Assembly (NCBI GenBank): GCA_000806115.1
Contig: JWKQ01000002.1
Location: 178,497-242,496, forward strand
DNA from: an archaeon GW2011_AR5
GTDB taxonomy: Archaea > Aenigmatarchaeota > Aenigmatarchaeia > GW2011-AR5
Direction: 5' to 3'
Length of the DNA: 64,000 nucleotides
Shown: positions 1-15,963 of the stretch, in pieces
Numbering within the stretch: position 1 is the first letter of the stretch
Layout: every line of letters begins with the position of its first letter
Notes under the pieces: generated by a model
Seen by the model: the letters and a program-made list of their open reading frames with translations, nothing else
The model's database searches: none
Told to the model about the DNA's origin: nothing
Position numbers and translations under genes: made by a program

Positions 1-1068
1 CTGCGGGTGCTTCGCAGAAAGCTGCACAGACGGCTCCGTGAAAGGGTAATAGTCCGGCATAAATTTTATTTTCTCCGTCCCGGCGAACTCAATCGCGAAT
101 TCTTTCAGCAGCCCGAGAAGGGCGCGGAAATTAAGCGATTCGTCAATGACAATCCCTTCAGTCTGGTTGAATTCACTTCCATGAGTCGCGTCTATTACAT
201 CGGGCCTGTAGCAGCGCAGTATGGCAAAATACTTCCCCGGAATGTCGGGTTTGTTTGCCATTGTCCGGGCTGACACCGCGGTTCCATGTGCCCTTGGCAT
301 CAACTGGGCAGCTTTCCTGGGATCCCATTTATACTGCCAACCGGTGCTGCCGGTATTCCCGCCGTTTTCATGGGCAGCCTTGACGCGCTCAACTATCGAC
401 TTTTCGGGAAGTGACCCTTCTTTCGTGCTCTTCAGCGAGTATGTCTGCGTCCAGTCGCGGCTTGGATGGTTCTGCGGCTGAAACAGGGCGTCGAAATTCC
501 AGAACTCAGTTTCGATGGTGGGACCTGTCATTTCCTGGAAGCCCATTTCTACAAGCTTGCGCCTCGCTTCCTGCAGGAACCTGTTGTACGGCTGGCGCTT
601 GCCTATGTGCAGCGTCTTTCCGGCAGCCTCTACGTTATAAGGTTTAAGTCTTGTTTTCTTCCACACTCCGGTTTTTATTATGTCCGTGTTCAGGTTGATT
701 ATTTCCTTTCCCGCAAAGCGCTCGGCCCGTTCCACAATACCTTCGCCTTTTTTCTCCGCCAGTTTTCTCTGGATTAGGATTTGAAGTACGTCTTCCGGCA
801 GTTCCTTTCCAGCCGCAAGATCCTTCATAGATTCTGTCTGCTCATCTATTCCCCTGATTTTGTCCTCAATGAGAATAAGGTTGCCGTGGGACACCTCGAT
901 GCATTTGTACTTCTTGCACCATTGGAGCGCAATAGAGAACTCGTTTCCCAGGACACCGCTCGCGTCTTTCATGCTGATGCCGTTCCTCTCCTTTATGAGC
1001 TCTATAAGCCTCTTCTCCGGCAAGCCGTGTTTGAGATAACGCTTTCCCTCGCCTGTTAATTCGTACAT
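1..1068 (-). CDS. pheS: Phenylalanyl-tRNA synthetase alpha subunit (partial)
   Basis: Charges tRNA-Phe as the alpha part of the PheST complex. The minus strand is open from an ATG at 1068 to the window edge (356 codons, C-terminus missing). The first ~90 residues form the archaeal/eukaryotic helical N-terminal region. After residue ~200 comes the class II catalytic core, with the family motifs FWNFDALFQPQNHPSRD (motif 2 region), then HGSEFNQTEG and FTEPS. It runs away from the small gene pair at 1110-1738. The product is clear; only the 3' end is unseen. Confidence 0.95.
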   Translation of the reverse strand, partial: MYELTGEGKRYLKHGLPEKRLIELIKERNGISMKDASGVLGNEFSIALQWCKKYKCIEVSHGNLILIEDKIRGIDEQTESMKDLAAGKELPEDVLQILIQRKLAEKKGEGIVERAERFAGKEIINLNTDIIKTGVWKKTRLKPYNVEAAGKTLHIGKRQPYNRFLQEARRKLVEMGFQEMTGPTIETEFWNFDALFQPQNHPSRDWTQTYSLKSTKEGSLPEKSIVERVKAAHENGGNTGSTGWQYKWDPRKAAQLMPRAHGTAVSARTMANKPDIPGKYFAILRCYRPDVIDATHGSEFNQTEGIVIDESLNFRALLGLLKEFAIEFAGTEKIKFMPDYYPFTEPSVQLSAKHPQ

Positions 1069-1109
1069 GTTAATCACTTGGCTGGCAGCTTATTAATCCG
1101 TTTTTTATT

Positions 1110-1337
1110 TCACGAAAAGAACCATTTATCACTGCCGTAATTCCTCTTTTTCTCGCGTTTATACCAGACGCTCACGGCTCTGCCGTCTCCCGTCACATAT
1201 GTGCGGGCGGACCCGTGAAGCAGAAGCTCGCTTTTTGCCCTTTCAACATATTCCAGGAGGTCATTGGGACAGTCATGAATGCCGTATCTTGTAGTCGAGC
1301 CATTTTCCCTTATGCTAATCCTCAATCTCGAGTCCAT
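1110..1337 (-). CDS. Small protein of unknown function (75 aa)
   Basis: I do not recognise this family. The 75-residue product is mixed charged with several predicted strands (SRLRISIREN, ARTYVTGDG, AVSVWYK) and a basic, aromatic C-terminus. Its start overlaps the end of the upstream winged-helix gene by 16 bases, so the two are probably translationally coupled and may work together. It has no signal peptide or membrane segment. Confidence 0.6.
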   Translation of the reverse strand: MDSRLRISIRENGSTTRYGIHDCPNDLLEYVERAKSELLLHGSARTYVTGDGRAVSVWYKREKKRNYGSDKWFFS

Positions 1338-1738
1338 TCAAACCCCTCCAACAAAGTTCTAGCCAAATATGTAAGCCTAATATGTCCATTGCTCTCTACA
1401 AGTCCGCATCTTTTCAACACTCTTATGGAGTTCCATATGGCAGATTCTGAACAGTTCAGTTCGGAAGAAACTGAGCGGACCATGCCGGAGATATTTTCAA
1501 GCTTTGATAGAGAAAGCCGCCTGAGTATGTGTCTCTGTTTTTGTGTCAGTCTTTCCTGGGCGATTTTTCGTGCAAGAATCAGATAGCTATAGCGATAATC
1601 TCTATAGCCTGCTTGAATTGGTACGGCATCGCCATCACTTCCATTTGCTTGGATAAAGAGCTTTTTAAAACTATTCTGCAGGAAATGTTGGAGTTGAAAT
1701 TGTTTTTTATAGCTGACCAACTTAATATTCAAGATCAC
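1322..1738 (-). CDS. Winged-helix DNA-binding protein
   Basis: Residues ~60-130 form a helix-turn-helix unit (ISGMVRSVSSELNCSESAIW followed by VLKRCGLVESNGHIRLTYLA), a typical winged helix read-head. The N-terminal ~35 residues are encoded partly by the two-hairpin repeat at 1715-1802. No internal ATG or GTG in frame is available, so the start is uncertain: either the repeat supplies the start or translation begins at a TTG. It is divergent from glyS and coupled to the 75-aa gene, and probably acts as a local regulator. Confidence 0.65.
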   Translation of the reverse strand: MILNIKLVSYKKQFQLQHFLQNSFKKLFIQANGSDGDAVPIQAGYRDYRYSYLILARKIAQERLTQKQRHILRRLSLSKLENISGMVRSVSSELNCSESAIWNSIRVLKRCGLVESNGHIRLTYLARTLLEGFEWTRD

Positions 1739-1802
1739 AAGTTGGTCGCATATAGTGAATCAAGTTGTAATAATATCCGAATTCTTTACTTGTTTCACTA
1801 TA
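1715..1802 (-). repeat. Two-hairpin dispersed element, copy 1
   Basis: Read on the minus strand: a hairpin with arms TATAGTGAAACAAG and CTTGATTCACTATA (one mismatch), then a second hairpin GACCAACTT/AAGTTGGTC, then AGCTATAA. The second stem closely matches that of the copy at 48160-48256 (GACCAGCTT/AAGCTGGTC). It lies between the divergent winged-helix gene and glyS and overlaps the 5' end of the former. Confidence 0.75.
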
Positions 1803-1817
1803 AGTTGAAAGTTCAAG

Positions 1818-3326
1818 ATGGTTAATATGACTTCTAATTTTGAAAAAATAGAGGAAATAGCCCGGCGACGCGGTTTCTTTTGGATAGGGTCGGAAGTTTA
1901 CGGCGGATTGTCGGGTTTCTACGATTACGCGCATCTCGGCTCCCTTTTGAAAAGCAGATGGGAAAGCGAGTGGCGAAAATTTTTTCTGGGACTTGATGAC
2001 AACTTTTTCGAGATCCAGCCTGCAGAGATAATGCACGAAAGAGTTTGGCAGGCATCCGGACACGTCGAGTCTTTCGTGGACCCTGTTGTGAAATGCAGGA
2101 AATGCGGGAACGTAGAGAGGGCCGACAAGCTTCTGGAGGAACAGCTGAAGGAGAGCTTTGAGGGCATATCCATGGAAGAGCTTGCGAAGGTTATCAAGAA
2201 ACATAACATGAAATGTCCCAAATGCAAGGGGCAGCTTGAGGAGGTGGGCGTCCTCAACCTGATGTTCCCCATAACCATAGGAAATGATGTGCGTGCCTAC
2301 CTTCGCGGCGAGACCGCGCAGGCTGCCTATCTAAATTTCAGGCGCGAGTTCGAAACGCTTCGAAAGAGGCTTCCCCTCGGGCTTGCAATAATAGGCAAAG
2401 CTTTCAGGAACGAAATAAGCCCGCGCCAGCTTATTACCCGCATGCGCGAGTTCACGCAGGCGGAGCTCCAGATATTTTTCGACCCGGAAAAAATGGAAGA
2501 GCACCGGAAATTTGGCGAGGTTAAGGACTACAAAATTCTCGTGATGCCGGTAAAGAACAGGGAAAACAACCAAATAGACGAAGTTTCCTGCGAAGAGATG
2601 ACGAAGCATCTTCCGCGTTTCTACGTGTACCATATGGCAAAGGTTCAGCAGTTTTTCCTCGACGTACTTGGAATCCCAAGACATCTCTTTCGCTTCAAGG
2701 AACTTTCTGACGAGGAAAAGGCTTTCTACAACAAATACCACTGGGATATAGAGGTAAAACTTGAAAGCATAGGGGGATTTCTGGAGATAGGCGGCGTTCA
2801 CTATAGAACAGATCACGACCTTGGGGCGCACCAGAAAATTTCCAAGCAGGACATGTCTGTATTCGCTGATGGAAGAAAGTTCGTGCCTCACGTCCTCGAA
2901 CTAAGCTTCGGTGTTGACAGGAATATTTATGCCCAGCTGGAGTTGTGCTATAAGGAGGACAGAGAAAGGAGTTTTTTCAATTTTCCGCGCAGGCTGGCGC
3001 CGTTTGACTGCGGCTTGTTCCCTCTTGTAAATAAGGACGGGATTGACGGGAAAGCGGAAGAGCTGAAGGCTTTCATGAAGGACTGCGGATTCTCCGTCTT
3101 CTATGACGATTCAGGGAGCATAGGACGCCGCTACAGGCGTATGGACGAGATAGGGGTTCCCGCTTCCATTACCGTGGACCATAGGACGCTCGAAGACAGA
3201 ACAGTAACCATACGAGACAGGGATTCGATGAAGCAGATACGCATTCCCGTTGCAGACATGGCTGAAACCCTGAGGAAATTTATATCAGGGACGCCTATAG
3301 AAAGCCTTGGCACACCGGTAAAATAG
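1818..3326 (+). CDS. glyS: Glycyl-tRNA synthetase, archaeal dimeric type
   Basis: Class II enzyme that charges tRNA-Gly. The 502 aa product fits the archaeal/eukaryotic alpha2 family. Visible landmarks are GFFWIGSEVYGGLSGFYDYA near the N-terminus, a CRKCGN...CPKCKG zinc-ribbon insert at ~95-140, RGETAQ, FRNEISPR (motif 2), LELSFGVDRN (motif 3) and a C-terminal anticodon-binding domain with SIGRRYRRMDEIG. The start could be ATG 1818 or the ATG three codons later. The histone-fold gene follows after 43 bases on the same strand. Confidence 0.97.
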   Translation: MVNMTSNFEKIEEIARRRGFFWIGSEVYGGLSGFYDYAHLGSLLKSRWESEWRKFFLGLDDNFFEIQPAEIMHERVWQASGHVESFVDPVVKCRKCGNVERADKLLEEQLKESFEGISMEELAKVIKKHNMKCPKCKGQLEEVGVLNLMFPITIGNDVRAYLRGETAQAAYLNFRREFETLRKRLPLGLAIIGKAFRNEISPRQLITRMREFTQAELQIFFDPEKMEEHRKFGEVKDYKILVMPVKNRENNQIDEVSCEEMTKHLPRFYVYHMAKVQQFFLDVLGIPRHLFRFKELSDEEKAFYNKYHWDIEVKLESIGGFLEIGGVHYRTDHDLGAHQKISKQDMSVFADGRKFVPHVLELSFGVDRNIYAQLELCYKEDRERSFFNFPRRLAPFDCGLFPLVNKDGIDGKAEELKAFMKDCGFSVFYDDSGSIGRRYRRMDEIGVPASITVDHRTLEDRTVTIRDRDSMKQIRIPVADMAETLRKFISGTPIESLGTPVK

Positions 3327-3369
3327 ATTTAAACTGATATTTCGAATAAACTAATAGGAGGTAGAAAAA

Positions 3370-3552
3370 ATGGCAAAAGTCGAAATGCTTGTTGTTAAGA
3401 GCAAAGTTCGTGACTACGCGAAGAAAAAGAAGGTAAACCTTGGCGGAGATGCTGCAGAAGCCCTGAGCAAGGAAGTAATGCGCCTTGTTGACAGAGCAGT
3501 GGAGCGCGCAAAGGCGAACAGGCGCAGCACGGTGAAAGGAAGAGATATTTAA
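3370..3552 (+). CDS. Short histone-fold protein (DUF1931-like)
   Basis: The 60 aa basic protein with a strong AGGAGGT ribosome site has the pattern of the short archaeal histone-fold family: LVVKSKVRDYAKKK, a central long helix (AAEALSKEVMRLVDRAVERA), then KANRRSTVKGRDI ending exactly where that family usually ends. It is therefore not a truncated HMf-type histone. It is expected to bind DNA as a dimer. It converges with the CBS gene, 18 bases apart. Confidence 0.8.
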   Translation: MAKVEMLVVKSKVRDYAKKKKVNLGGDAAEALSKEVMRLVDRAVERAKANRRSTVKGRDI

Positions 3553-3570
3553 TTGGGATTTTTATTTTCT

Positions 3571-4701
3571 TTATCTTCCTTTTCTCATCATCCTTCTTCT
3601 TTTTGTGTCGGTTTTTACCTTGCTGGACTTGTGAACCACTTCTTTCTCCATGTCGCTGAAAACTTCCTGAAGGACGTCTATCGGTTTCCAGCCCCATGAA
3701 TGAGAGATAAAAAAACCTGTCGATGATTTGAAGCGCGCACGTATGGAATATTTTGCCTTCGGGCCCTGTTTGTGCATCTTGTCGACATGAACCGCAAGAT
3801 ATTCTATTCTAGGCGTTATCTTCGCCATCTTCTTTACGAAGTCCGTCACGGCTATGTCCATCCTCGCCTTGAATTCTATGCTTTCGTCCTGCATTCCGGT
3901 TATCTGCACATAGACACCTTTCTGCGGCGCCTGGACGAACAGTTCAAGTATGTCCTTGTGGGTGATTATCTTCACGCCGCCATCCTGCACAATAACCTCT
4001 TCGTTGGTTTTTAGCAGGTCAATTATGTCTCCTATCTTCTTGTTAGTCCCGGCAACCAGAGCCGGCCTCATTAGCGCAGTCACAGGCGTCTCTTCGAGCC
4101 CGACCTTTTCCCTTGCCGCCTTCTCCTGGGTACCGCCTCTTACTTCCATTGTTCCCCTACCCGTGAGGATCTTTATCATTTCGAGCGTACCGATTACGCC
4201 TTCAATCTTTTCGCCGTCGGTTATCGGGACGCGAGACACGTTCTTTTCAATGAACAGTTTTTTGACCTGTCCAAAATTGCCTCGCTTGTCGATGCACTCC
4301 GCGGCTCCGGCAATCTGGCTTGCAGAATTGTCAAGTCCTCTTATGAACTGCTTCGCCACCTTCATGATATCGGTTTCCGATATTATTCCAACGATTTTTC
4401 CCGCGTCAGTGACTGGCACTGCGCGCATGGCGCTCGTAAGCAGGAGCTGTGCCGCGCTTTCGACGTTTGCATTTACATCGATATTCGGGACGTTTGTGGC
4501 AAAATTTTCAACCTTGGCAGAGGAAGCGTCTATCCTTTGGGTGACTATTTTTCTCAGTTCGATTATGCCGTAAAGGTTCTCGCCGCTCATAACAGGAAGC
4601 TGATGTATCTTGTGACGTTCCATCTTTCCAAGTGCTTGGCTCACATGCTCGTCGGGCCTCACGGATATTATGTTTTTTGTCATGAGTTCTCTTACATTCA
4701 T
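3571..4701 (-). CDS. CBS-domain protein with basic C-terminal domain
   Basis: The 376 aa product starts with MNVRELMTKNIISVRPDEHV, the hallmark CBS start. Four CBS repeats fill residues ~1-270 (two Bateman modules, likely sensing adenylates). The last ~105 residues form a separate alpha/beta domain (IEYLAVHVDKMHKQGPKAKY) with a very basic tail (KTDTKRRRMMRKGR). The pattern weakly recalls the S30AE ribosome-hibernation fold, and CBS proteins that bind ribosomes are known in archaea. A ribosome-associated energy sensor is therefore possible, but this is inference. The stop lies next to endA's promoter side. Confidence 0.75.
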   Translation of the reverse strand: MNVRELMTKNIISVRPDEHVSQALGKMERHKIHQLPVMSGENLYGIIELRKIVTQRIDASSAKVENFATNVPNIDVNANVESAAQLLLTSAMRAVPVTDAGKIVGIISETDIMKVAKQFIRGLDNSASQIAGAAECIDKRGNFGQVKKLFIEKNVSRVPITDGEKIEGVIGTLEMIKILTGRGTMEVRGGTQEKAAREKVGLEETPVTALMRPALVAGTNKKIGDIIDLLKTNEEVIVQDGGVKIITHKDILELFVQAPQKGVYVQITGMQDESIEFKARMDIAVTDFVKKMAKITPRIEYLAVHVDKMHKQGPKAKYSIRARFKSSTGFFISHSWGWKPIDVLQEVFSDMEKEVVHKSSKVKTDTKRRRMMRKGR

Positions 4702-4709
4702 TCAATCAC

Positions 4710-5324
4710 CTACGGTTTGTGCCTTGTTATCTGATAAAATGTCACGTCGCTTTCATTGTCAACAACCGCCCATAGCATTCTTGCGCGTATATTGTGAGCA
4801 AGCCGCACGCTCCGCGAAAGTTCGGCAAAGGACATCGTGAAGTCCTCAGGAACCGAAAAAACTATCCATTTTGTGTGCTCCTTGGCGCTTTTTGGGCCTT
4901 TCTTAAGCTGTACCCCCCGTTCATATACGCGGAAATCGCACCCGAACTTGAAGCCTGTGCGCACGAGCAGCCCGCGCTCCCTCAAATCTTCATAAACGCG
5001 GTATTTATGCGGAAATCTTTTATCTATTGAACACGCATGGTCATAAAGTTCCTTAAATGTTAGGAGTTTTCCGAGCGAAGAGACCCTTATCCTCCCGCGC
5101 TTCAGAAGAAGTGTCGCTTCGACCATGGCAAGTTCAAGCCTTTCGCCGAGCTCCTTGCCGTAATATCCCGGCTCATAAACATGTTCGCGGTTTTCCGTTG
5201 CTATTACCTTGTCCTCGGCAAGGATAGTGTCAACCACTATCTTCACAGGTTCCGGCTCGATGTATTCGTTGCCGACATCTGCCTGTTCCATTGAATCTCC
5301 GGATTTTTTGTTCTTTTTTGACAT
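4710..5324 (-). CDS. endA: tRNA-splicing endonuclease, one-unit type, divergent active site
   Basis: Cuts BHB introns from pre-tRNA. Starting at the ATG at 5324 (MSKKNKK) the product has 204 aa: one N-terminal and one catalytic domain, as in homotetrameric or alpha/beta enzymes. Conserved parts are YRVYEDLRERGLLVRTG, KFGCDFRVYERG (catalytic Tyr present) and KEHTKWIVF (catalytic His present). At the third catalytic position the family has VRKK, but here the motif is IRARMLWAVVD, so the lysine appears to be Ala. It may be a structural subunit or a variant enzyme. The longer frame from 5384 is less likely. Confidence 0.9.
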   Translation of the reverse strand: MSKKNKKSGDSMEQADVGNEYIEPEPVKIVVDTILAEDKVIATENREHVYEPGYYGKELGERLELAMVEATLLLKRGRIRVSSLGKLLTFKELYDHACSIDKRFPHKYRVYEDLRERGLLVRTGFKFGCDFRVYERGVQLKKGPKSAKEHTKWIVFSVPEDFTMSFAELSRSVRLAHNIRARMLWAVVDNESDVTFYQITRHKP

Positions 5325-5432
5325 ATTATCGCCAGAAATAGACGTACCTAAAAGAAGGTAAGACGAATGCAGGATGCCCGGCATTCTTTGTCTACTCCGA
5401 AATTATAATCCTAGCGTATCTTTAAAAATCAG

Positions 5433-6005
5433 TCAGTAGTTTGATTCTCCGCTTGTGCAGTTTATTGTGTAATTGCCGTTGCATACTATGCTGCCGTTTG
5501 TGATGTTCCAGTTGCGTATTGCAGCCGATTGCACGTCTCCAAAACTGCAGCATATAGGTCTTACAGAGCTGCGCGCAAGCTGCTTGTACGATTGAATAGA
5601 GTTTTCATTTTCCGTTCTGCAGGAATTAAGCGACGCCGACAGGTTATTCCCTTCGTTCTCAAGCCTTACCCTCTCTTTATTGCAGTTATCCAGGGAGAGC
5701 CTGTTTGAAGCTAAGTTCGAGCCGCATGTGCTCAGACTGCTGTTCAATGAACCAAGGTTGCTTCTCATATTTTCCAGGACAGACTCGCATATATCTTTCT
5801 GCTCCTGCACTGCTGTTAGTTCAGCCTGAGTATTGTTCAGCTGCGTTTCAAGCGACTTGCTGTAAGTTGCATAGCCTGTCATTGTATTTCCGACAAAATA
5901 GAAAATTCCGGCGAAGAGAATTATGACAGCCGCTATCGCAAGATGCTTGCCTTTTTTACCGAATTGCAAGCCTTCGTTGCTCTGCGGGCTGTAATTGTAA
6001 CCCAT
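5433..6005 (-). CDS. Membrane-anchored coiled-coil protein
   Basis: The 190 aa product has a short cytoplasmic N-terminus, one transmembrane helix (LAIAAVIILFAGIFYFVGN, residues ~22-42), then ~80 residues of heptad-like coiled coil and a C-terminal part with three cysteines and several N-glycosylation sequons (NITNGS, NYTINCTS). The topology suggests an extracytoplasmic C-terminus. A TATA-like TTTATAAAA lies ~20 bases before the ATG. No family recognised. Confidence 0.7.
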   Translation of the reverse strand: MGYNYSPQSNEGLQFGKKGKHLAIAAVIILFAGIFYFVGNTMTGYATYSKSLETQLNNTQAELTAVQEQKDICESVLENMRSNLGSLNSSLSTCGSNLASNRLSLDNCNKERVRLENEGNNLSASLNSCRTENENSIQSYKQLARSSVRPICCSFGDVQSAAIRNWNITNGSIVCNGNYTINCTSGESNY

Positions 6006-6052
6006 AATAGCTATTTGCCTGTGTTTTATAAAAAGGTGCGTAATGCGGCGAA

Positions 6053-6259
6053 CTAAATGTACCAGAACCTCCGGTTTCCTATCTTTCGATGTTTTATTCT
6101 ACCTTCTTTTGAAAGTTGTTCGATATATTTTAAGCCAGTTTCATATCCCATCTTAAGCCTATCACAAATTTCAGAAGTCGACATAAAGGTGTATTCTTTC
6201 AAAATCTCTAGAATTTCTGTCTTATATTTTTCAGCATCAAAGCCTTTTTTTCTTGGCAT
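6053..6259 (-). CDS. Small winged-helix regulator (68 aa)
   Basis: The 68 aa basic protein consists of one winged helix: TFMSTSEICDRLKMGYETG (helix-turn-helix) followed by YIEQLSKEGRIKHRKIGNRR (recognition and wing). It is divergent from the broken homing endonuclease gene across a 53-base gap that holds a perfect inverted repeat around both TATA boxes, so it is a good candidate for an autoregulator of that module. Confidence 0.75.
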   Translation of the reverse strand: MPRKKGFDAEKYKTEILEILKEYTFMSTSEICDRLKMGYETGLKYIEQLSKEGRIKHRKIGNRRFWYI

Positions 6260-6280
6260 GTTATTTTATTGTATAACAAA

Positions 6281-6309
6281 TTTTATATAGTTTAAAACTC
6301 TATATAAAA
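6281..6309. promoter_or_regulatory. Inverted repeat covering divergent TATA boxes
   Basis: TTTTATATAG (6281-6290) and CTATATAAAA (6300-6309) form a perfect 10-bp inverted repeat with a 9-bp spacer. Each arm is TATA-like and sits ~20-25 bases from one of the two divergent start codons (6259 on minus, 6313 on plus), so it can be a two-way promoter and an operator. Confidence 0.6.
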
Positions 6310-6312
6310 GAT

Positions 6313-6937
6313 ATGAAATTAAACGAAAATATGGCAGAAATGGTTGGAATAATTATTGGAGATGGGTTTATTCATAGAGGCAAAAAGAGTTATTTTGGAT
6401 TCACCGGCAGCCCAAAAACAGATAAGGAGTACTATATTTTTTTGACAAATCTAATTTCTGATACATGTAATAAAACCATTAAGGTTAGAGAGACTTGGAG
6501 GACTTAGAATTGTTGTTTATTCTAGTGAGGCAACAAAATTTCTAACCGAGAATTTAGGGCTTGTACATGGGAAAAGTAAAACAGAAAATGTTGTTATTCC
6601 TGAAGTCATTGCATCGAATTGGAATTTAGTTAAATATACGATAAGGGGAATTATAGATACAGATGGCTCAGTTTTTCTTTCAGATAAGCCAGGAACCCCA
6701 AAATATCCTTCTATTGAAATAACTACATCTAGTCCGAAGTTAGCTAAACAAATAAGGAGTATTCTATTAACTAGAGGATTTAGGGTCGCAAAAATTTGGG
6801 GCTATAAATCAAAACTTAGTAAAAAGACTAGCTATAAAATACCTCTGAATGGAAAGAAAAACCTTGAAATGTGGGTAAAAGAAACAGGCTTTTCGAATCC
6901 TTACAAAATGAAAAGGGCTTTGTCTGCATTGAATTAA
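6313..6937 (+). pseudogene. LAGLIDADG homing endonuclease, frameshifted
   Basis: The first frame gives 64 residues with the first LAGLIDADG-type motif (MVGIIIGDGFIHR). At the GA-dinucleotide run near 6488-6493 the homology moves to another frame (RLGGLRIVVYSSEA...), which continues to a stop at 6935-6937 and carries the second motif (IRGIIDTDGSVFLSD). Loss of one GA unit explains the shift. The joined protein would be ~207 aa, a normal stand-alone two-motif enzyme. It ends one base before the tRNA-Phe gene, which holds four introns. Confidence 0.8.
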
Positions 6938-6938
6938 A

Positions 6939-7117
6939 TGGGAATGGTGGGAATTTCACCCACGGTCAATCTAAGACCGTCAGCTTTGAATTTGCGGGCT
7001 CACGAAGAACCTCCCACAACACTCCGTATTGAGAAAATCAATTTCCCAACTTCACGGTCTTCAGCCGTTTGAGCTACGTTTTTGCGTATGTGCTCTCCCA
7101 GATTGAGCTACATTCCC
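6939..7117 (-). tRNA. tRNA-Phe(GAA) with four introns
   Basis: Exons on the minus strand: 7117-7090, 7068-7052, 7021-7013, 6990-6985 and 6952-6939. Joined, they give a perfect 74-nt tRNA: acceptor GGGAATG/CATTCCC, D stem GCTC/GAGC, anticodon arm CACGG-CTGAAGA-CCGTG, variable loop ATGTT, T arm GTGGG-TTCAAAT-CCCAC, discriminator A. Introns are 21, 30, 22 and 32 nt, at about 27/28, 44/45, 53/54 and 59/60. Each has a 3-base bulge, 4-bp helix, 3-base bulge layout: GAGC/GCTC, CCGT/ACGG, TGTG/CGCA, TTCA/TGAA. None is at the usual 37/38 site. Confidence 0.9.
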
Positions 7118-7153
7118 TTTTTCTTAAAATCCTTTAATGAGGAAGTTTAAAAG

Positions 7154-7258
7154 CGCCCCGGCGCGGGCTCGAACCGCGGACCTCTTGGTTAACAGCCAAG
7201 CGCTCTACCTGTTCCTCTCTAACCCGACAATATCCGATTAGATCTGAGCTACCAGGGC
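7154..7258 (-). tRNA. tRNA-Asn(GTT) with D-loop intron
   Basis: Acceptor GCCCTGG/CCGGGGC, anticodon arm CTTGG-CTGTTAA-CCAAG (GTT at 7193-7191) and T arm CGCGG-TTCGAGC-CCGCG are canonical. Between the D-stem arms GCTC and GAGC the loop is ~30 nt too long. The extra part (about 7213-7243) contains a TCTAA/TTAGA hairpin, as expected for an intron. I could not fix the exact splice sites. No CCA is encoded. Confidence 0.9.
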
Positions 7259-7313
7259 ATTCTCAGATATACACTTTCACGGAATATTTAAAAGCTGTAA
7301 ATAACTTAATTCT

Positions 7314-7613
7314 ATGGTCTTATCCGGCTTGGATTTTGCCGTAATAATAGCATCGCTAACTTTTCTTTTTACTATACTTTCCAAAGTGATAGGATTTCCT
7401 GACCAAATAAGAAAAAACTTCAAAAAGAAATCTACTGAGGGACTCTCTACGATATTTATTGTAATTTCTGTAGTAAGCTATGCTCTATAGACAATTCATG
7501 GATTTATTCTTGGTGACTGGGTATTGATTTTTGGTCAGGGTCTTGGTATAATAGTCACAGGAATAATCTTATTCCAAATAATTTACTACAAAAATCGTAA
7601 AAAGAAAAGGTAA
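7314..7613 (+). pseudogene. SemiSWEET/PQ-loop-like membrane protein interrupted by TAG
   Basis: From ATG 7314 the frame encodes three transmembrane segments in SemiSWEET style: LDFAVIIASLTFLFTILSKV, the loop IGFPDQIRKNFKKKSTEGLS, then IFIVISVVSYAL. After a TAG at 7488-7490 it continues in frame (TIHGFILGDWVLIFGQGLGI...) to TAA at 7613, 99 codons in all. In the family this position is usually Trp (W..YG), so TAG looks like a one-base change from TGG. It is either a recent pseudogene, a readthrough gene or a sequencing error. Confidence 0.65.
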
Positions 7614-8693
7614 CTAATCCAAGAAATCTTTCTTCTTGAGCTTGTCCGGAAGGTATGTTTCCGACATAAACTTGAGTCCTTTATGGGACAGGGCCTCGAT
7701 TTCTGCCTTTATTCCCTTCTCTATCATCAGGTTTAGCTCCTTTTGCCATTTGGGATTCTTCTTGAACCACTCGTAGTTGAGCATCTCTTTGGCACGCTTA
7801 ATGTCTACGTCCTTTGCCTTGATCGTTGCTTTCTTCAGGTCATACTCATATACATCTGATATCGTAAGTCCTAGGAATTTCGCGCTCGGCGTAGAAATTC
7901 TATCTGACACATGTGCTAAGCTTATTGAGCCTGATTTTATTACAGAATAAATATATGCCCCATAGGCGTCAGCGTCGCAAAATACATAAACGGGCAGCTT
8001 GTGTTCCTGGTTCAGCCTCTGTATCAGCAGTCTCGTCCCTCTTGACGGTTGTCCCCCAGTACCTATCAGTATGCACTTGTGCTTCTGCCAGAACTTGTCC
8101 TCGTGCAGTCTTTCAAAACCTGCGTTTTTCTCTACGACAAGCACGAATTCCGCCTCCACCTTCTTGAATGTTATTTCATCCACCGTGCTTGGAATGGACC
8201 AGCCGCCGCTTCCGAGCTTCGACCAGTCTATGCTGTCGCCGCGGTCCTGGATGATGACGTTGCCGGCAACTATGCCTTTTCTGTCCGTGGTGAGGTGAAG
8301 CTGTTCGCGCAGCACGTCTATGGCAACTTCCAGATCGACTATTATCGGGTCGCTTTCAGATTGTTCGTCAAAAGTATTCTCATTGCTGTCGGGCAGCGTA
8401 CGCTTCAGGTTGTAGAACATGTCTCTGATGCTCGCGTGTATGTTCTGGTCTATCAGCTGCTTGGAGAATGACGCAACCATGGCGGTCTGCATAAATTTTT
8501 TTGCGTGGGCTACGTTGAAGTAATATCTTTTTGCAGTCTTGTCGCCAAGCGTCAGCTGCCCAAGTTTCTTGTCGAAGACGACGTTGGACAGTGCACGTAT
8601 AGGTATCTCTATGCTGGGATTTTCCTTCTTTTCTATATCCTGCAGTATCTTGTCCCCGAGTTTTTGCAGTTCTTTTTTAACGTCTTTTGCCAT
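7614..8693 (-). CDS. top6A: DNA topoisomerase VI subunit A
   Basis: Spo11-like DNA-cutting subunit of topoisomerase VI. The 359 aa start at the ATG at 8693 (MAKDVKKELQ), just after the top6B stop. It has a winged-helix part with the active-site Tyr in SIRDMFYNLKR, then a TOPRIM domain (CILIGTGGQPSRGTRLLIQR; VYVFCDADAYGAYIYS). It is co-transcribed with top6B and the KH gene. Confidence 0.96.
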   Translation of the reverse strand: MAKDVKKELQKLGDKILQDIEKKENPSIEIPIRALSNVVFDKKLGQLTLGDKTAKRYYFNVAHAKKFMQTAMVASFSKQLIDQNIHASIRDMFYNLKRTLPDSNENTFDEQSESDPIIVDLEVAIDVLREQLHLTTDRKGIVAGNVIIQDRGDSIDWSKLGSGGWSIPSTVDEITFKKVEAEFVLVVEKNAGFERLHEDKFWQKHKCILIGTGGQPSRGTRLLIQRLNQEHKLPVYVFCDADAYGAYIYSVIKSGSISLAHVSDRISTPSAKFLGLTISDVYEYDLKKATIKAKDVDIKRAKEMLNYEWFKKNPKWQKELNLMIEKGIKAEIEALSHKGLKFMSETYLPDKLKKKDFLD

Positions 8694-8703
8694 TCTATAC
8701 CAC

Positions 8704-10347
8704 TCATTTCTTTTCTTCTTTCTTAACATCTTTAGTATCCGTGGATTCATCCACAAACTCTTCCTTTATATGTACCCTGCTTTCCACAAGAGCTTTTAGC
8801 TTCTTTTCTATATCCTTGTCATTCTTGCCTGTAAGTATTGCTATGGCATCTGACACTTCGCCCGCGTATCTGTCGAACATCTGCATCCTGCGCTTCTGTT
8901 CGCCTGCCCTTCGCTTGCCGGACAGGTATGAGGAAAGCTTTCGACCGGCGTCCTGGATTGCAAGTTTAGTCTCCTTTATTATTTCGGGATATGCAGCGAC
9001 CGCTTCCTTGCTTTCGGACATGAACGGAACCCACACTGAGCATATATGTACCACAAGCTTCATTGGACCCGATGGGAGGTTGTTGCCCGATTGTGAAAGG
9101 TTGTAACGCCTCCAGTCAACGTCCTTGGCGGCCTCCGTCAGGGCGCATGCACTTTGCTGGTAGAGCAGCGGAACCCGGTTTGCAAATCTTATCAGCTCAA
9201 TTGTATCTTCCTTTTTTTCGTCGTCTTCTTTCTTCTTTTTTGTTCCGGATTCGTCTGATAAGCCGTAAACAATACCCACTTCAACTAGGAAAGGAAATCC
9301 CCTGTAAACTTCAGGATCTCTTGTTATAGAGGTGATGAACTCGGCATTTGGGTACTCTTTTTTCAAACTCTTTTCCAACTCTGCTGAGCCGATTGGTGAC
9401 AGGCAGTCTGTCGGCGGTCTCTGAACCTTTGCGGTTTGCATGCCTTTGATTAGCTTGTCTATTGCAGCGCGGTCAAGTTCCTGCGGCTTGGAGTCTTCAG
9501 GGAGTTTTGCAAGCTTGCATATTTCCTTTGCGCTTTGCTGCCCTACGGAGGAGAATTCATTGGTCAAAAATGACTGAAGCGTTCTCGAGCTTGTGTTCTG
9601 CAGAAGGCGTTGCAGGATTCCGAATTCCATGCCGTGCGGGTGGGGCTTCATCCTCTTTGGAGGTTTTGGCAGCTCATTTACTGAGCGCGGGAAAATCGTC
9701 TTGGTACCGTCTGGTGCAGTATATGCGATTTTTGCAAACGGATTCGAAACGGATGTCTGTTTAAGATAATCCTCAACAGTTTTTCTGTAGCGGCCGTGGA
9801 TTTCCATCTCCACCTTTACGCCGTGCTCGCCGACAACATCCTTTTCAATCTCATCTTCCTTGATGATGTCGGGCTCGTTCTTCGCCGTATTCAGGTGCAG
9901 TTCGCAATAATAAGTTTTTTTCTTGCTTTCAACCTTTGACCATACCTTTGTCGGCACGCCCGTTGTGAGCTGGGCATAAAGTGTTACGCTGCTTATTCCT
10001 ATGCCCTGCTGGCCGCGTCCCTGGAGTAATCTGTGGAACTTGCTTCCGTAAAGCAGCTTGCCGAATACGCGCGGCACGTTTTCTTTTACTATACCGGGCC
10101 CGTTATCAGCGACAGAAACTATGTAAGTGTTGTCGTCAACCTGCTTGATCTTGACTGTGATGTCCGGCAATATACCTGCTTCTTCAGACGCGTCCAGCGA
10201 GTTGTCGACAGCCTCCTTGACAGCCATCAAGAGGGACTTTGTCGGGTTATCAAAGCCCAGAAGATGCTTGTTTTTCTCGAAGAACTCGCTCACGCTTATC
10301 TCTTTCTGTTCCTTTGCAAAGTCCTCAGCTTTTTTCCTCTCGCTCAT
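8704..10347 (-). CDS. top6B: DNA topoisomerase VI subunit B
   Basis: GHKL ATPase subunit that drives strand passage. The 547 aa start at MSERKKAEDF (10347), overlapping the end of the KH gene by 23 bases. ATP-site motifs are AVKEAVDNSLDASEEAG and VADNGPGI, followed by GRGQQGIGISSVTLYAQ. A transducer domain with the conserved RFANRVPLLYQQSACA follows. An acidic/lysine-rich insert (SGTKKKKEDDEKKED) before that motif is unusual. The C-terminus is a charged tail. Confidence 0.97.
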   Translation of the reverse strand: MSERKKAEDFAKEQKEISVSEFFEKNKHLLGFDNPTKSLLMAVKEAVDNSLDASEEAGILPDITVKIKQVDDNTYIVSVADNGPGIVKENVPRVFGKLLYGSKFHRLLQGRGQQGIGISSVTLYAQLTTGVPTKVWSKVESKKKTYYCELHLNTAKNEPDIIKEDEIEKDVVGEHGVKVEMEIHGRYRKTVEDYLKQTSVSNPFAKIAYTAPDGTKTIFPRSVNELPKPPKRMKPHPHGMEFGILQRLLQNTSSRTLQSFLTNEFSSVGQQSAKEICKLAKLPEDSKPQELDRAAIDKLIKGMQTAKVQRPPTDCLSPIGSAELEKSLKKEYPNAEFITSITRDPEVYRGFPFLVEVGIVYGLSDESGTKKKKEDDEKKEDTIELIRFANRVPLLYQQSACALTEAAKDVDWRRYNLSQSGNNLPSGPMKLVVHICSVWVPFMSESKEAVAAYPEIIKETKLAIQDAGRKLSSYLSGKRRAGEQKRRMQMFDRYAGEVSDAIAILTGKNDKDIEKKLKALVESRVHIKEEFVDESTDTKDVKKEEKK

Positions 10348-10828
10348 CCTGTCTTGCCTCCAGAAATTCGTATACAAATCTGTGCGGTATACCTTTTATA
10401 ATCTTCTGTATAGCCTGTTCAGCCAGGCTGACATTGCCGTATTTGCCTATCAGGGAAACAGTTTTACCGTAAACAGAAATATATGTTCCTGTCAGGCGTT
10501 CTATGTTGCGCCGGGACTTACCTCTCGTACCTATTAGCCTTGACTTGAGCCTTTTTTGGGTCTTCTCGCCTTTTGGAAGCTCTATTATGACAAGCGTGTT
10601 CTCTTCGTCCATTAGAAGCTCAGCATGTACGGGTGAAAAGCCGCGGCCAATTGCTTTGATTACGCTTTCGGCGTCAAGCACCCCGATGGATTCACCGTCT
10701 ATTATTATTTCTTCCTCACCCGCTGTTATCTTCGTCTTCGTCTTGCGCTGGATGGAGCGCTTTGTAGCGCCATTCTTGCCTATCAGGACAGGCAGGCGTT
10801 CCTCCGGTATCTTGACATTCTTTATCAT
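10325..10828 (-). CDS. KH-domain rRNA-processing protein, Dim2/Pno1 type
   Basis: The 167 aa contain two KH-like units: VKIPEERLPVLIGKNGATK (GxxG loop GKNG) and SRLIGTRGKSRRNIERLTG. It ends with GIPHRFVYEFLEARQDE, matching archaeal Dim2p/Pno1 (size ~170-180), which binds the 3' end of 16S rRNA and partners of small-subunit maturation. It overlaps top6B, so the two are translationally coupled. Confidence 0.9.
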   Translation of the reverse strand: MIKNVKIPEERLPVLIGKNGATKRSIQRKTKTKITAGEEEIIIDGESIGVLDAESVIKAIGRGFSPVHAELLMDEENTLVIIELPKGEKTQKRLKSRLIGTRGKSRRNIERLTGTYISVYGKTVSLIGKYGNVSLAEQAIQKIIKGIPHRFVYEFLEARQDEREEKS

Positions 10829-10882
10829 AGTAAATTTTTTCGTTCCTTACGTATTAAAGCGAAAAATCTGTGCAGAATCAGT

Positions 10883-11182
10883 TCAATATTCCATTTTCAG
10901 TATGTTCTTCTTCTTCAGGACAGAAACCTGCGTCTGCGTGTATCTTATCACGATATCCCCGTTCGTGTCTTTTTGTATGTCCCATGGCTTTACCAGCACC
11001 ACGTCGTTCTCCTTTATCCACATGGACTTCCTAAGCCGTCCAGGTATCCTGCACAGACGCATCTTGTCGTCCTGGCACCTGACGCGGAGCTTGTTGGCGC
11101 CAAGCATGGCTTCTACTATGCCGAGCACCTCGCCCTGCCTTGGCATCTTCACTCTTACCGGTTCGCCTGGATGATGGTACAT
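10883..11182 (-). CDS. eif1A: Translation initiation factor aIF1A
   Basis: The 99 aa S1/OB-fold protein shows GEVLGIVEAMLGANKLRVRC, RIPGRLRKSMWIKENDVVLV and KPWDIQK..GDIVIRYT, diagnostic for aIF1A, which binds the 30S A site. I prefer the ATG at 11182 because GTGAT just before it can serve as the ribosome site; that GTG overlaps the stop of the upstream gene. The family's long basic N-terminus is short here. Confidence 0.95.
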   Translation of the reverse strand: MYHHPGEPVRVKMPRQGEVLGIVEAMLGANKLRVRCQDDKMRLCRIPGRLRKSMWIKENDVVLVKPWDIQKDTNGDIVIRYTQTQVSVLKKKNILKMEY

Positions 11183-11187
11183 AAAAA

Positions 11188-11532
11188 TCACTTGTATCTT
11201 CTTTTAATCTCCTTTAGCTTCTTCAGCAAAGGACTTCTCCAATCTTCTTCCAATTGAGACTTAATAAGCTTAATTAACTCTGCGTCTCCCTTTCTGATTT
11301 TTATTTTTTCTAGAGCCTTGCATATTGAAAGAATTTTAAAATCACGGTCTACGGATAACAAATATTTCTTTGAGTCAGCTTTTGTGACTTTGTGAGTGTG
11401 CTTGAGCACAGCTTTTCTATCCTTCAGAAGTTTCTGGTAGGTTTTATCTTTCTCAAGGATATACCTTAACTTGGTTCCAGAGTAGCCTTTCTGAATATAA
11501 AATTCGGCAATTTCATCTAGAGTCAGTTTCAT
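11188..11532 (-). CDS. Unknown helical basic protein (114 aa)
   Basis: Not recognised. It is rich in Lys and Leu and mostly helical; the N-terminal part (TLDEIAEFYIQKGYSGTKLR) looks like a small helix-turn-helix. It sits between NMD3 and aIF1A with one-base spacing or overlap at both ends, so it belongs to that operon and may have a translation- or ribosome-related role by context only. Confidence 0.6.
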   Translation of the reverse strand: MKLTLDEIAEFYIQKGYSGTKLRYILEKDKTYQKLLKDRKAVLKHTHKVTKADSKKYLLSVDRDFKILSICKALEKIKIRKGDAELIKLIKSQLEEDWRSPLLKKLKEIKRRYK

Positions 11533-12132
11533 TTACCGCACCGCGTAATAATTCCTGTAAACCATCTGGCCTTTCTTGCTGCCTCCGACCTTGTAGGAGT
11601 CTTTCACCGAAAATCTTTCGCGAAGCGCCTTCGCGGCGGCTGCGGCGTTGGGTTTTCTCATTATTTTCACGTCATATCCTTCCTTTATTTCCTCTATGCT
11701 GCTTATCGCCTTTTCCGGCACAACCTGCTTTACTTTTTTAAGAATGGACTCTTTTTGGGGGCCGCGTATCTGTATCATCGCCTCGTAGTAGCCGCCTGAA
11801 AGTCTCACGTGCATCTCGCACATTTTCTGGCGCAGCATCACGAGAGATTTGTGGGTTTCCGTTTTTTTCAAACCTTTTATCACACCTTCCGCCTCGATTG
11901 TTGCATATACCCTGTTGCCGAGAGTTCTGAGGGATATCTTTTCCCGTGTTATTTTGTGCGAGGTTTTTATTGAACGGCTTATCTTACCCCTGAGGTCTTT
12001 CTCGTCAATCCCGCACTGGTTGCAGTAGATGTATGAGAAATCCTTGATCTCAAACAGTTTCTGCGCTTCAAGGAAGTGCTCGCTGCAAAAATTGCCCACC
12101 GTGGCGGGACCCCCGCATTTTATGCAAAACAT
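11533..12132 (-). CDS. NMD3-family ribosome biogenesis protein
   Basis: The 199 aa begin with two treble-clef CxxC motifs (FCIKCGGPA and CSEHF, later YCNQCGIDEKD), followed by the NMD3 core (GNRVYATIEAEGVIKG; RQKMCEMHVRLSGGYYEAMIQIRG). Archaeal homologues act in 50S assembly. It leads the minus-strand block NMD3, unknown, aIF1A, KH, top6B, top6A. The C-terminal SH3-like part of eukaryotic NMD3 is absent, as usual in archaea. Confidence 0.9.
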   Translation of the reverse strand: MFCIKCGGPATVGNFCSEHFLEAQKLFEIKDFSYIYCNQCGIDEKDLRGKISRSIKTSHKITREKISLRTLGNRVYATIEAEGVIKGLKKTETHKSLVMLRQKMCEMHVRLSGGYYEAMIQIRGPQKESILKKVKQVVPEKAISSIEEIKEGYDVKIMRKPNAAAAAKALRERFSVKDSYKVGGSKKGQMVYRNYYAVR

Positions 12133-12163
12133 AGAAGTAGTAGAGATGTGAGAGAATTTAAGG

Positions 12164-13231
12164 TCAGAAAAATATGCGCCATATTGTAAGATCTACGATG
12201 TAAACATCCCCGTCAAAGACGAATATGCTCGACTTGAAGTTCACCGGCGCAGGAGTTTTCTCTATCATGTCCAGTTTTGACCTTTCGCCGCTTACCCACA
12301 TTATGCCCGCTTTTGTCAGGTTGTCTGTGTCCCTTGTCGGACCGCATGATGCGCATGTGTGGTCTACACGGTTGTAGTCATTCAGCCATATGGTTCTGCC
12401 GCGCCCGATCTGATTGGACCTGACGTATGACCTGCTGTCAGGCGTTTTTACAATGTCTTTTCCGTCTGCCTGGTAGCCGATTCCTGTTGAAACAAAAACG
12501 CTGAAAGGGTCTGTCTGTACGTTCGGAAGGTGCCTGGTGGATATGTTGGCGTAGTATCTCGCAATGAAGTGTGACGGCTTGTTGGAATTGAAAATCCCCC
12601 CGTCAACGTCTTCGAACCTGCCTTGTAGGTTGGATGTGCCGCCGCTCCACGTCAGTCCGAATGTGTTGCCTATCGGCGTGTTCCCGACATCCGTCGAGTC
12701 AAGGCTTGAAAGCAGAAAAACGCCCCCTCCTGTGTCAAGGAAATCGTTTATCTTTGTCTGGTGCACGGCTATCTTTGACTTGTCAAAGAAGAACAGTATG
12801 CCGGCGCCTTCCGGTACATCCTGTGTTGCGAGGTCAAGAGTCTGTATGTTTATGCTTGTGTTTTTCTTTTTGTAGGTAAAGTCCTTGTTTGCAATTATGG
12901 CGGAAAGGTCGTCCAAGTTGGTCTGGCTGCAGCCAATGCATGCTATGTTAATTGTCTTGCCCGGTATACCCCTGACTTCTATGGAGAAGTCCACGGTTTT
13001 CGGCAGCATCTCGGAAAAAAAGGCGTTCAGCTGCGTCGTGTTGTCGGTTTTTACAAATCTTGCCAGAGTGCCGTTCAGGTACGCGCTCTCAAGCGCGTCT
13101 TCTGCCATTATCTGGAGCGACGTGCTGTCCCACTCGGATTTCTGCACGTTTGGCGTGAAGAAGAATGTCAGTGAGGCAAGCAGTATGATTGACGCCACTA
13201 TCGCCTCGAATATCTTTGCAAAACCCTTCAT
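12164..13231 (-). CDS. Pilus-locus surface protein with pilin-like N-terminus
   Basis: The 355 aa have an N-terminal pilin-type segment: KIFEAIVASIILLASLTFFF following a basic start, with Glu at the +5-like position. The large extracellular part contains a flavodoxin- or GATase-like sheet pattern (GAGILFFFDKSKIAV...GGGVFLLSSLDS) and a C-terminal hydrophobic strand. It overlaps tightly (1 bp gap) with the next pilin-like gene. It is probably exported and assembled by the ATPase/TadC system of this locus. Confidence 0.7.
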   Translation of the reverse strand: MKGFAKIFEAIVASIILLASLTFFFTPNVQKSEWDSTSLQIMAEDALESAYLNGTLARFVKTDNTTQLNAFFSEMLPKTVDFSIEVRGIPGKTINIACIGCSQTNLDDLSAIIANKDFTYKKKNTSINIQTLDLATQDVPEGAGILFFFDKSKIAVHQTKINDFLDTGGGVFLLSSLDSTDVGNTPIGNTFGLTWSGGTSNLQGRFEDVDGGIFNSNKPSHFIARYYANISTRHLPNVQTDPFSVFVSTGIGYQADGKDIVKTPDSRSYVRSNQIGRGRTIWLNDYNRVDHTCASCGPTRDTDNLTKAGIMWVSGERSKLDMIEKTPAPVNFKSSIFVFDGDVYIVDLTIWRIFF

Positions 13232-13232
13232 T

Positions 13233-13766
13233 CTAATCCCCTGTGACAGTCACCTTGATTTTTATTACGTAAGTGTCGCCGCCCTGTATGGGCATGACGC
13301 CGAGTCTCGTTGTCTGGAACTGCTGCCTTACCTCTGTTGTCACAGAAGGCCCGCATATAACTTTTGGCAGCCCGTTCAGCGGCGTGTCGTCCAGATGCGA
13401 AACCTCTATTACGATATCCTCGCCTTCAAGTCCGAGTTTCTGTCTTGCGAGCTGGTAGTTTGAGCAGATAGAATTCAGTTTCGCGATTTTGTCCCTGTCA
13501 ACAAAATAGCGCATTCCTGAGGACAAGCCGATGCGCTTTATGTTCTGGGTGTCGCTTTCGTCCTCCCAGTTCATGGGGACGCCCTCGTCAAAGAGCAGCA
13601 GCTCCGAATACTGGTAGCTCTTGGATTTCAGGCTTTCTGAGGCTGACAAGCCGTGAAGTATCGGTATGTTGTTGATTATCAGGAAAGTCACGAAGGATAT
13701 GGTGGTTATGAAAACAAAAACCGATATAATGAATTCAAGTTCGGCAATCCCTTTCACATAAATCAC
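13233..13766 (-). CDS. Pilin-like protein
   Basis: The 177 aa show a short N-terminus with KGIAELEFIISVFVFITTISFVTFL: a class III signal-like cleavage region followed by a hydrophobic helix with Glu at +5, typical of archaeal type IV pilins. The rest is a beta-rich soluble domain. It sits in the pilus operon directly before the 355-aa surface protein. Confidence 0.75.
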   Translation of the reverse strand: MIYVKGIAELEFIISVFVFITTISFVTFLIINNIPILHGLSASESLKSKSYQYSELLLFDEGVPMNWEDESDTQNIKRIGLSSGMRYFVDRDKIAKLNSICSNYQLARQKLGLEGEDIVIEVSHLDDTPLNGLPKVICGPSVTTEVRQQFQTTRLGVMPIQGGDTYVIKIKVTVTGD

Positions 13767-13783
13767 TTCTGCGGCTGTCTAAT

Positions 13784-13901
13784 GTGAATCAAATAATCAA
13801 TCGTGATATAATCAAGAACTTTTGATTCTTGTATTATAAATTTGATTCACTTAAAGCGTTCCAAGTTATACTATCCCCGATTCTTTACTTGGAGCGCTTT
13901 A
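13784..13901 (+). repeat. Two-hairpin dispersed element, copy 2
   Basis: Stem 1 GTGAATCAAAT/ATTTGATTCAC encloses a loop with its own CAAGAA/TTCTTG hairpin. Stem 2 is AAAGCGTTCCAAGT/ACTTGGAGCGCTTT. The right end touches the stop codon of the TadC-type gene, so the element is the 3' flank of that gene and the 5' flank of the pilin gene. It shares TATTATAAATTTG and TTAAAGC with the copy at 23627-23695. Confidence 0.8.
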
Positions 13902-14858
13902 GATGATTCCCGTCTTTACCAGTAGTATGAACACTATGAAGCCGCTCAGTAGCATTATCAGGCTGTGCTTGACGCCGACGGCGATTGAGTCAGAGCCTAT
14001 CTGGCCGGCTATTAGGCCTGAAAAGAAGCCTTGTATGAGTATCATTGCAAGGAACAGCGATTTGTAATAAGAAGATGACTCTTTCGGGTCTCCGAGCTCG
14101 AACGCCTGCGTTATGGTGGCGAAAGTGTTGCACCCCACGCATGCAAGGTCCTGGTTGTTCACGCAGAGCGAGCAGGGGTTCGGATTGAAGCCCTGCACCC
14201 CGAACCCGCCGGTTTGCGACTGGGTTTGCAGCAGCGGTATCAGGAATTTGATTAGCGCTATTGTTATGCCGAGAAATATGAAGAATATGGCGTACATCAT
14301 CATGACCTGCTGGTTCAGCAGCACGGATTTTTCCTGCTGCGACTCCTTTATCGACTCTATATGATTTGCCAGGGACTCCATCGTGTCTTCTATGTTGCCG
14401 CCGGACTTGTTCGCCTGGTCTATTATCATCAGCGATCTCGTTATTATCTTGCTGTCGGCAACGCGTATTCCGAAATTCTTCAGCACCCTGTCAAGCGATA
14501 TGTTCCAGCTCAGCTGCGTGTTCATTTTTTTGATTTCCTTGGTAAGGGCCCCGTAGTCCGACTTCGAGGTGGTCTGTATAGCCTGTATCAGGGAAAGGCC
14601 GGCACGCAGACTCTCTGATATGTCGCGCAGAAAATTGGGGAAATCGTTTTCATAGGAGCGTATTTTCTTGAGCCTGAAGAACTTGAACAGGCTGTATGGC
14701 ACCACTAAAATGAGCATTCCAAGAAACAGCATGTTGGCAATGAGAGCTATGCTGCCCGTATAAATTGCAAAGGAAACGAGTCCGATGAAAGCGGCAACGC
14801 ATACTATCAGAATTTTGCGTTCTGTCCTGATTCCGCCACCTTCTTTGTATTTCTTCAT
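13899..14858 (-). CDS. Type IV pilus/secretion membrane protein (TadC/FlaJ family)
   Basis: Polytopic assembly-platform protein. The start is best placed at 14858 (MKKYKEGGG, 319 aa), because the longer frame reads into the repeat at 14884-14973. It has two N-terminal membrane helices, the T2SSF domain (FLRDISESLRAGLSLIQAIQ; a GGNIEDTMESLANHIE repeat signature), then membrane helices including MMYAIFFIFLGITIALIKFL and a C-terminal pair. A small loop with CSLCVNNQDLACVGC holds four cysteines. It pairs with the homologue at 15034-15891. Confidence 0.88.
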   Translation of the reverse strand: MKKYKEGGGIRTERKILIVCVAAFIGLVSFAIYTGSIALIANMLFLGMLILVVPYSLFKFFRLKKIRSYENDFPNFLRDISESLRAGLSLIQAIQTTSKSDYGALTKEIKKMNTQLSWNISLDRVLKNFGIRVADSKIITRSLMIIDQANKSGGNIEDTMESLANHIESIKESQQEKSVLLNQQVMMMYAIFFIFLGITIALIKFLIPLLQTQSQTGGFGVQGFNPNPCSLCVNNQDLACVGCNTFATITQAFELGDPKESSSYYKSLFLAMILIQGFFSGLIAGQIGSDSIAVGVKHSLIMLLSGFIVFILLVKTGII

Positions 14859-14883
14859 GTCTCTCTGCGCCCCGGCTATGATT

Positions 14884-14973
14884 ATAGTGCTACAAGAGAA
14901 CAATCTGGATGTGATTTTCTTGTGCACTATATGTGAACCCAGAAAACATGTAGGGATTCTTTTCTGGGTTAAC
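14884..14973 (-). repeat. Two-hairpin dispersed element, copy 3
   Basis: Minus strand: TTAACCCAGAA.../TTCTGGGTTCAC (stem 1), then TATAGTGCACAAGA.../TCTTGTAGCACTATAA (stem 2 with a single bulged A on the 3' arm). It ends ~25 bases before the preferred ATG of the TadC gene, so it forms its 5' leader. The loop GTAGGGATTCTTTT (plus strand) is also found in the copy at 22504-22599. Confidence 0.8.
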
Positions 14974-15033
14974 TATATAATTAACATTTGGGGTTAAAAA
15001 TACACGGACGAATCAGTAATTTCCCTGTGATGC

Positions 15034-15891: not shown

Positions 15892-15963
15892 TTTATAGCA
15901 CCAATAATGATTTGCACGCGGGGGAATATTAAGGTTTTAAAAGATTTCTGACATCTGTGGGAT

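Follow-up and report, generated by a model that had tools for sequence, protein, structure and literature searches.

The window, the whole 64,000-nt stretch of DNA analysed here, comes from an uncultivated member of Candidatus Aenigmatarchaeota (DPANN). Its minus strand carries, from 7117 down to 6939, a tRNA-Phe gene divided into five exons (28, 17, 9, 6 and 14 nt) by four introns (21, 30, 22 and 32 nt), which reproduces to the base the structure proposed in an earlier, sequence-only reading of the locus. Joining the five exons gives the predicted spliced tRNA-Phe, GGGAATGTAGCTCAATCTGGGAGAGCACACGGCTGAAGACCGTGATGTTGTGGGTTCAAATCCCACCATTCCCA, and the 74-nt product forms, as that reading had claimed, a perfect cloverleaf that is called tRNA-Phe(gaa) by ARAGORN. 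The canonical intron site at 37/38 was likewise correctly described as uninterrupted; the introns sit at 27/28, 44/45, 53/54 and 59/60 (Sprinzl numbering). Site 53/54 is the junction of T stem and T loop, site 59/60 lies within the T loop, and the two are indeed separated by only six bases. On the unspliced precursor ARAGORN makes no call and the Rfam tRNA model gives 13 bits at the locus; general tRNA searches can therefore miss such genes.

The bulge-helix-bulge (BHB) pairing that had been worked out by hand also stood, with a 4-bp central helix, 3-nt bulges and a flanking helix at all four junctions (Table 1). Intron 4 has a full BHB with central, inner and outer helices, whilst introns 1 to 3 have relaxed motifs with central and inner helices only. 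For intron 4 the T stem itself (GTGGG:CCCAC) serves as outer helix, and the full BHB would form only after intron 3 has been removed. A split or permuted tRNA gene is ruled out, the five exons lying in linear order inside 179 nt. The end of intron 4 carries GTGGGTGAAAYTCCCAC, spanning the 3′ junction, both in the window and in the related genome G011. This element copies the 5′ strand of the T stem and is able to pair with the exon CCCAC; it is possible that it acts as a decoy or folding aid.

Table 1 Features of the tRNA-Phe locus and its neighbours, in window coordinates
Feature	Position	Strand	Length	Description
endA	4710..5384	-	224 aa	tRNA-splicing endonuclease; 1.5 kb from tRNA-Phe
exon 5	6939..6952	-	14 nt	positions 60-73
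intron 4	6953..6984	-	32 nt	59/60; central TTCA:TGAA, inner ACGGTC:GACCGT
exon 4	6985..6990	-	6 nt	TTCAAA; T-loop positions 54-59
intron 3	6991..7012	-	22 nt	53/54; central TGTG:CGCA, inner GGTTC:GAGCC; relaxed BHB
exon 3	7013..7021	-	9 nt	positions 45-53
intron 2	7022..7051	-	30 nt	44/45; central CCGT:ACGG, inner helix 9 bp; relaxed BHB
exon 2	7052..7068	-	17 nt	positions 28-44; anticodon GAA
intron 1	7069..7089	-	21 nt	27/28; central GAGC:GCTC, inner TACG:CGTA; relaxed BHB
exon 1	7090..7117	-	28 nt	positions 1-27, comprising the 5′ acceptor strand, the D arm and bases 26 and 27
tRNA-Asn(GTT)	7154..7258	-		upstream of tRNA-Phe; D-loop intron of ~30-32 nt

In the 858-kb assembly, which is 87.6% complete, we detected no second tRNA-Phe; the next-best score elsewhere with the tRNA-Phe template is 58.7 and belongs to other isotypes. 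The intact tRNA-Phe(GAA) at another site, against which the sequence-only reading had asked its claim to be checked, was thus not detected in this incomplete assembly. The anticodon GAA, the synteny with orthologues and the single copy detected at this level of completeness are all those of tRNA-Phe(GAA). Automated parses, made without a full hand check, suggest 0–3 introns in each of the other tRNAs of the genome. At blastn sensitivity no near-identical copies of the introns were found elsewhere in the assembly, and intron transposition inside the genome is unsupported. The neighbourhood of tRNA-Asn, tRNA-Phe and endA (window 1–16000) is conserved across many genomes of the order; pheS, glyS, top6A and top6B are also near tRNA-Phe in the window.

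PheS, the RtcB ligase and EndA are all encoded in the same genome. The window EndA scores 106.6 bits against TIGR00324 (cut-off 59.6), and searches with PF01974, TIGR00324 and PF02778 revealed no second subunit in the 87.6%-complete assembly; the architecture in this incomplete genome is one single-unit gene. The catalytic triad of M. jannaschii EndA is Tyr115, His125 and Lys156, and a count of residues along the 1a79 sequence is consistent with this. In the window enzyme the catalytic Lys is replaced by Ala, and a loop, KKGPKS, is inserted. A contig scan with this EndA as query gave 38 loci. The EndA loci parsed, all from Aenigmatarchaeota, number 37. Every parsed locus carries the insertion (consensus KKGPKS) a short distance N-terminal to the catalytic His, retains the Tyr and His of the triad and lacks the equivalent of Lys156, the position being Ala in 35 and Thr in 2. 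The KKGPKS loop aligns with KKGKRS of the N. equitans α subunit; M. jannaschii has no such loop. The N. equitans (αβ)2 enzyme (PDB 3iey) and the ARMAN-2 ε2 enzyme (PDB 4fz2), both of broad specificity, share the insertion with the window EndA, but they differ from it in that only a single endA gene was found here and in the Ala or Thr that replaces Lys at all 37 parsed loci. In the ARMAN enzyme a Tyr and a Lys of the loop contact RNA and the loop is required for cleavage (PMC12397907). The Tyr-His-Lys triad is conserved in the four types of EndA, and a Lys of the loop might be catalytic (PMC6379350). We infer that the window EndA is active because it is conserved and because many tRNA genes of the genome would otherwise be unusable. 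In genome G022 (G022:C50, L140/L142) a second, ε2-like EndA of 418 aa with the catalytic Lys motif HSVRKTF is found beside a Lys-less EndA.

Because the EndA found here has no catalytic Lys, it could be that the multi-intron gene is real but that its splicing is helped by an undetected second endonuclease subunit, making the enzyme heteromeric. The replacement of Lys156 by Ala or Thr throughout the parsed loci would fit such an arrangement, as would the Lys-containing second enzyme of G022 and the fact that the known broad-specificity EndA enzymes are (αβ)2 or ε2 (PMC6379350). Against it, the three profiles found one endA only, although a divergent β subunit could escape them and the assembly is incomplete. 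We consider a second subunit unlikely. It would compete with our explanation only as regards EndA and would leave the gene structure as it stands.

The four-intron tRNA-Phe gene is further defined by comparison with relatives. The congener G001 has, beside the same tRNA-Asn, an intronless tRNA-Phe that is identical to the predicted spliced product at 70 of 74 positions, and the acceptor pair C5-G68 is replaced in a compensatory manner by A5-T68. The tRNA-Asn/tRNA-Phe linkage is kept in congeners. Among relatives all four intron sites of the window gene are found again, and the exon:intron helices covary. Site 27/28 is also occupied in G003, G012, G013, G067 and G075, the central helices at this site being GAGC:GCTC, GAAC:GTTC and GAGC:GCTT; site 44/45 in G002, G006, G013, G015, G016, G049, G067 and G077 (CCGT:ACGG and CCGT:GCGG). 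Site 53/54 is shared with G011 (CGTG:CACG) and G075 (CGCT:GGCG), in place of the TGTG:CGCA of the window, and site 59/60 with G002, G006, G011, G020, G021 and others (TTCA:TGAA and TCCA:TGGA). G011 has the same adjacent pair, 53/54 and 59/60, as the window gene. We abandoned the idea that the introns cooperate strictly in pairs, 27/28 with 44/45 and 53/54 with 59/60, because 44/45 and 59/60 occur alone too and the fold probabilities are mixed.

We enumerated all sets of up to four introns in the tRNA-Phe precursor that obey the BHB rule (a 4-bp helix between exon positions -6 to -3 and intron positions -6 to -3, plus a flanking helix). The four-intron parse is the unique best of the 962 sets, with a score of 73 against 65 for the runners-up, which have long variable arms and do not have a TTCRANY T loop. 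An intron-tolerant template alignment scores 91.2 at the locus; the highest score among 200 dinucleotide shuffles is 30.7. Randomised introns placed at the same four sites pass the BHB criteria at frequencies of <2e-5, 0.002, 0.005 and 0.03. It could still be argued that the gene has no more than three introns, in that introns 3 and 4 form one larger intron or are cut elsewhere, and that the tRNA then has either a long variable arm or the non-consensus T loop TGAAATT. The second-best parses are of this three-intron or long-variable-arm kind, and the GTGGG copy in intron 4 could pair with the 3′ strand of the T stem. The three-intron products, however, have no T54-T55-C56, whereas confidently parsed tRNA-Phe genes of Aenigmatarchaeota, including that of the intronless congener, have a loop of the T[TC]CAAAY type; moreover, G011 is interrupted by introns at the same two sites, 53/54 and 59/60, and the helices there covary. 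On the enumeration score and T-loop conservation the three-intron and long-variable-arm parses were rejected, and we regard them as very improbable. A further rival reading, in which the locus is a pseudogene in decay or an error of assembly and the true tRNA-Phe sits in the part of the genome missing from the 87.6%-complete assembly, is hardly credible given that none of the 74 mature positions is damaged, that the acceptor change relative to G001 is compensatory, that the synteny of tRNA-Asn, tRNA-Phe and endA extends to many genomes and that the same intron sites occur in independent assemblies.

A census of 63 tRNA-Phe genes of Aenigmatarchaeota was compiled via similarity to tRNA-Phe exon 1 and linkage to endA, and is thus a biased sample; one duplicate was removed, the window gene and that of G003, with its irregular 5′ acceptor strand, were added by hand, and parsing failed at several distant loci. 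No intron was found in 23 genes, one in 19, two in 10, three in 8, four in 2 (the window gene and its congener G002) and five in 1. The G002 gene (DUFR01000006.1) is interrupted at 30/31, 37/38, 44/45 and 59/60. The five-intron gene belongs to G020 (L156, JACRMW010000006.1:4434-4654, plus strand), a genome of the same order as that of the window, and has introns at 14/15, 30/31, 37/38, 42/43 and 59/60. Its exons include pieces of 5 and 7 nt, and the central helices at 14/15 and 37/38 have one mismatch each. The tRNA-Phe of G025, a congener of G020, is intronless. Since a relative has five introns and close cousins have none, tRNA introns appear to be gained and lost very fast in this group. 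In the genus of the window the counts are 0, 3, 4 and 4, with overlapping but different sets of sites, and it therefore appears that introns were acquired or retained piecemeal. In G003 (L143, about 2979–3183) the 5′ acceptor strand CGCAAGG is incompletely paired with the 3′ strand, and the gene abuts or overlaps the end of tRNA-Asn; either an error or an atypical arrangement of the 5′ end may be the cause.

We hold with high confidence, on the strength of the sequence comparisons, that the window locus is a functional and probably the sole tRNA-Phe(GAA) gene, that it would be spliced by EndA and RtcB, and that its introns were gained or retained piecemeal. In the standard archaeal route EndA cuts each BHB and RtcB then joins the ends. 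Here the local EndA would make eight cuts in one transcript, and its tolerance of relaxed BHB motifs may come from its lysine-rich loop; RtcB would join the five exons and would probably circularise the introns. For the naked precursor folded at 37 °C, the minimum energy is approached to within 0.2 kcal/mol by BHBs 1 and 2 and to within 1.2 kcal/mol by BHB 3; BHB 4 lies 2.2–2.7 kcal/mol above the minimum. A structure in which all four coexist has -55.7 kcal/mol, compared to -61.3 kcal/mol for the minimum. Helix 3 has a probability of 0.58 in the full precursor but of 0.01 when intron 3 is the sole intron left, BHB 3 then being outcompeted by the T stem. In most contexts helix 2 is likelier with intron 1 still in place. 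Excision may thus follow a constrained order, with introns 2 and 3 leaving first, then 1 and 4. Intron 3 would precede intron 4 because the T stem, which serves intron 4 as outer helix, has its 5′ strand upstream of intron 3. Folding suggests that intron 1 leaves after introns 2 and 3 because it keeps the anticodon stem open.

The published maximum for archaeal tRNA genes is three introns (PMC8450103, PMC4033280), and the statement in the sequence-only reading that three is the usual figure for heavily interrupted genes matches PMC4033280. Its view that four would be exceptional holds, but the gene is not unique, as a congener also has four and a genome of the same order has five. The mechanism class is already known and it is the multiplicity, four in the window tRNA-Phe and five in G020, that exceeds the published limit of at most three. 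The sites 53/54, 59/60 and 30/31 are among those already described (PMC4090602). Full-text literature searches gave nothing relevant on four introns in an archaeal tRNA, and the literature searched contained no description of multi-intron tRNA genes of Aenigmatarchaeota. Multi-intron tRNA genes of Thermoproteales such as Pyrobaculum calidifontis and P. islandicum similarly have several short BHB or relaxed-BHB introns each, both canonical and non-canonical sites being used, and lie in genomes rich in introns; tRNA-Pro(UGG) of P. islandicum, for example, has introns at 25/26, 37/38 and 56/57. They belong to a different phylum and no more than three per gene are published (PMC8450103, PMC4033280), as against four here and five in the relative. 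In the Asgard Atabeyarchaeia and Freyarchaeia, again a different phylum, more than half of the tRNA genes have multiple, often non-canonical introns, similar to what is seen here, according to the main text of PMC11291895, which gives no per-gene maximum; genes with four introns may occur there too.

The stated ceiling of three introns is broken, and by a DPANN phylum whose genomes are close to 1 Mb in size; additional processing is unexpected there. The congeners with 0, 3 and 4 introns, together with the 0-versus-5 pair in the other genus, form a natural series for the study of intron gain, loss and excision order. We put forward tentatively, and with more doubt than assent, the wider proposal that tRNA genes of Aenigmatarchaeota are the most interrupted known, that a single-gene EndA has lost its catalytic Lys clade-wide and replaced it by a Lys of the inserted loop, that introns are gained and lost within genera, and that excision follows a constrained order because introns share exon segments. 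The RtcB gene (G000:C1:388035-390800, minus strand) is a 971-aa open frame with a 479-aa intein after ~50 profile residues (Pfam Intein_splicing, E 1.4e-15). A parse of the tRNA-Phe of G147 (L226) suggests a 31-nt intron at 3/4, in the acceptor stem, and another in the anticodon stem.
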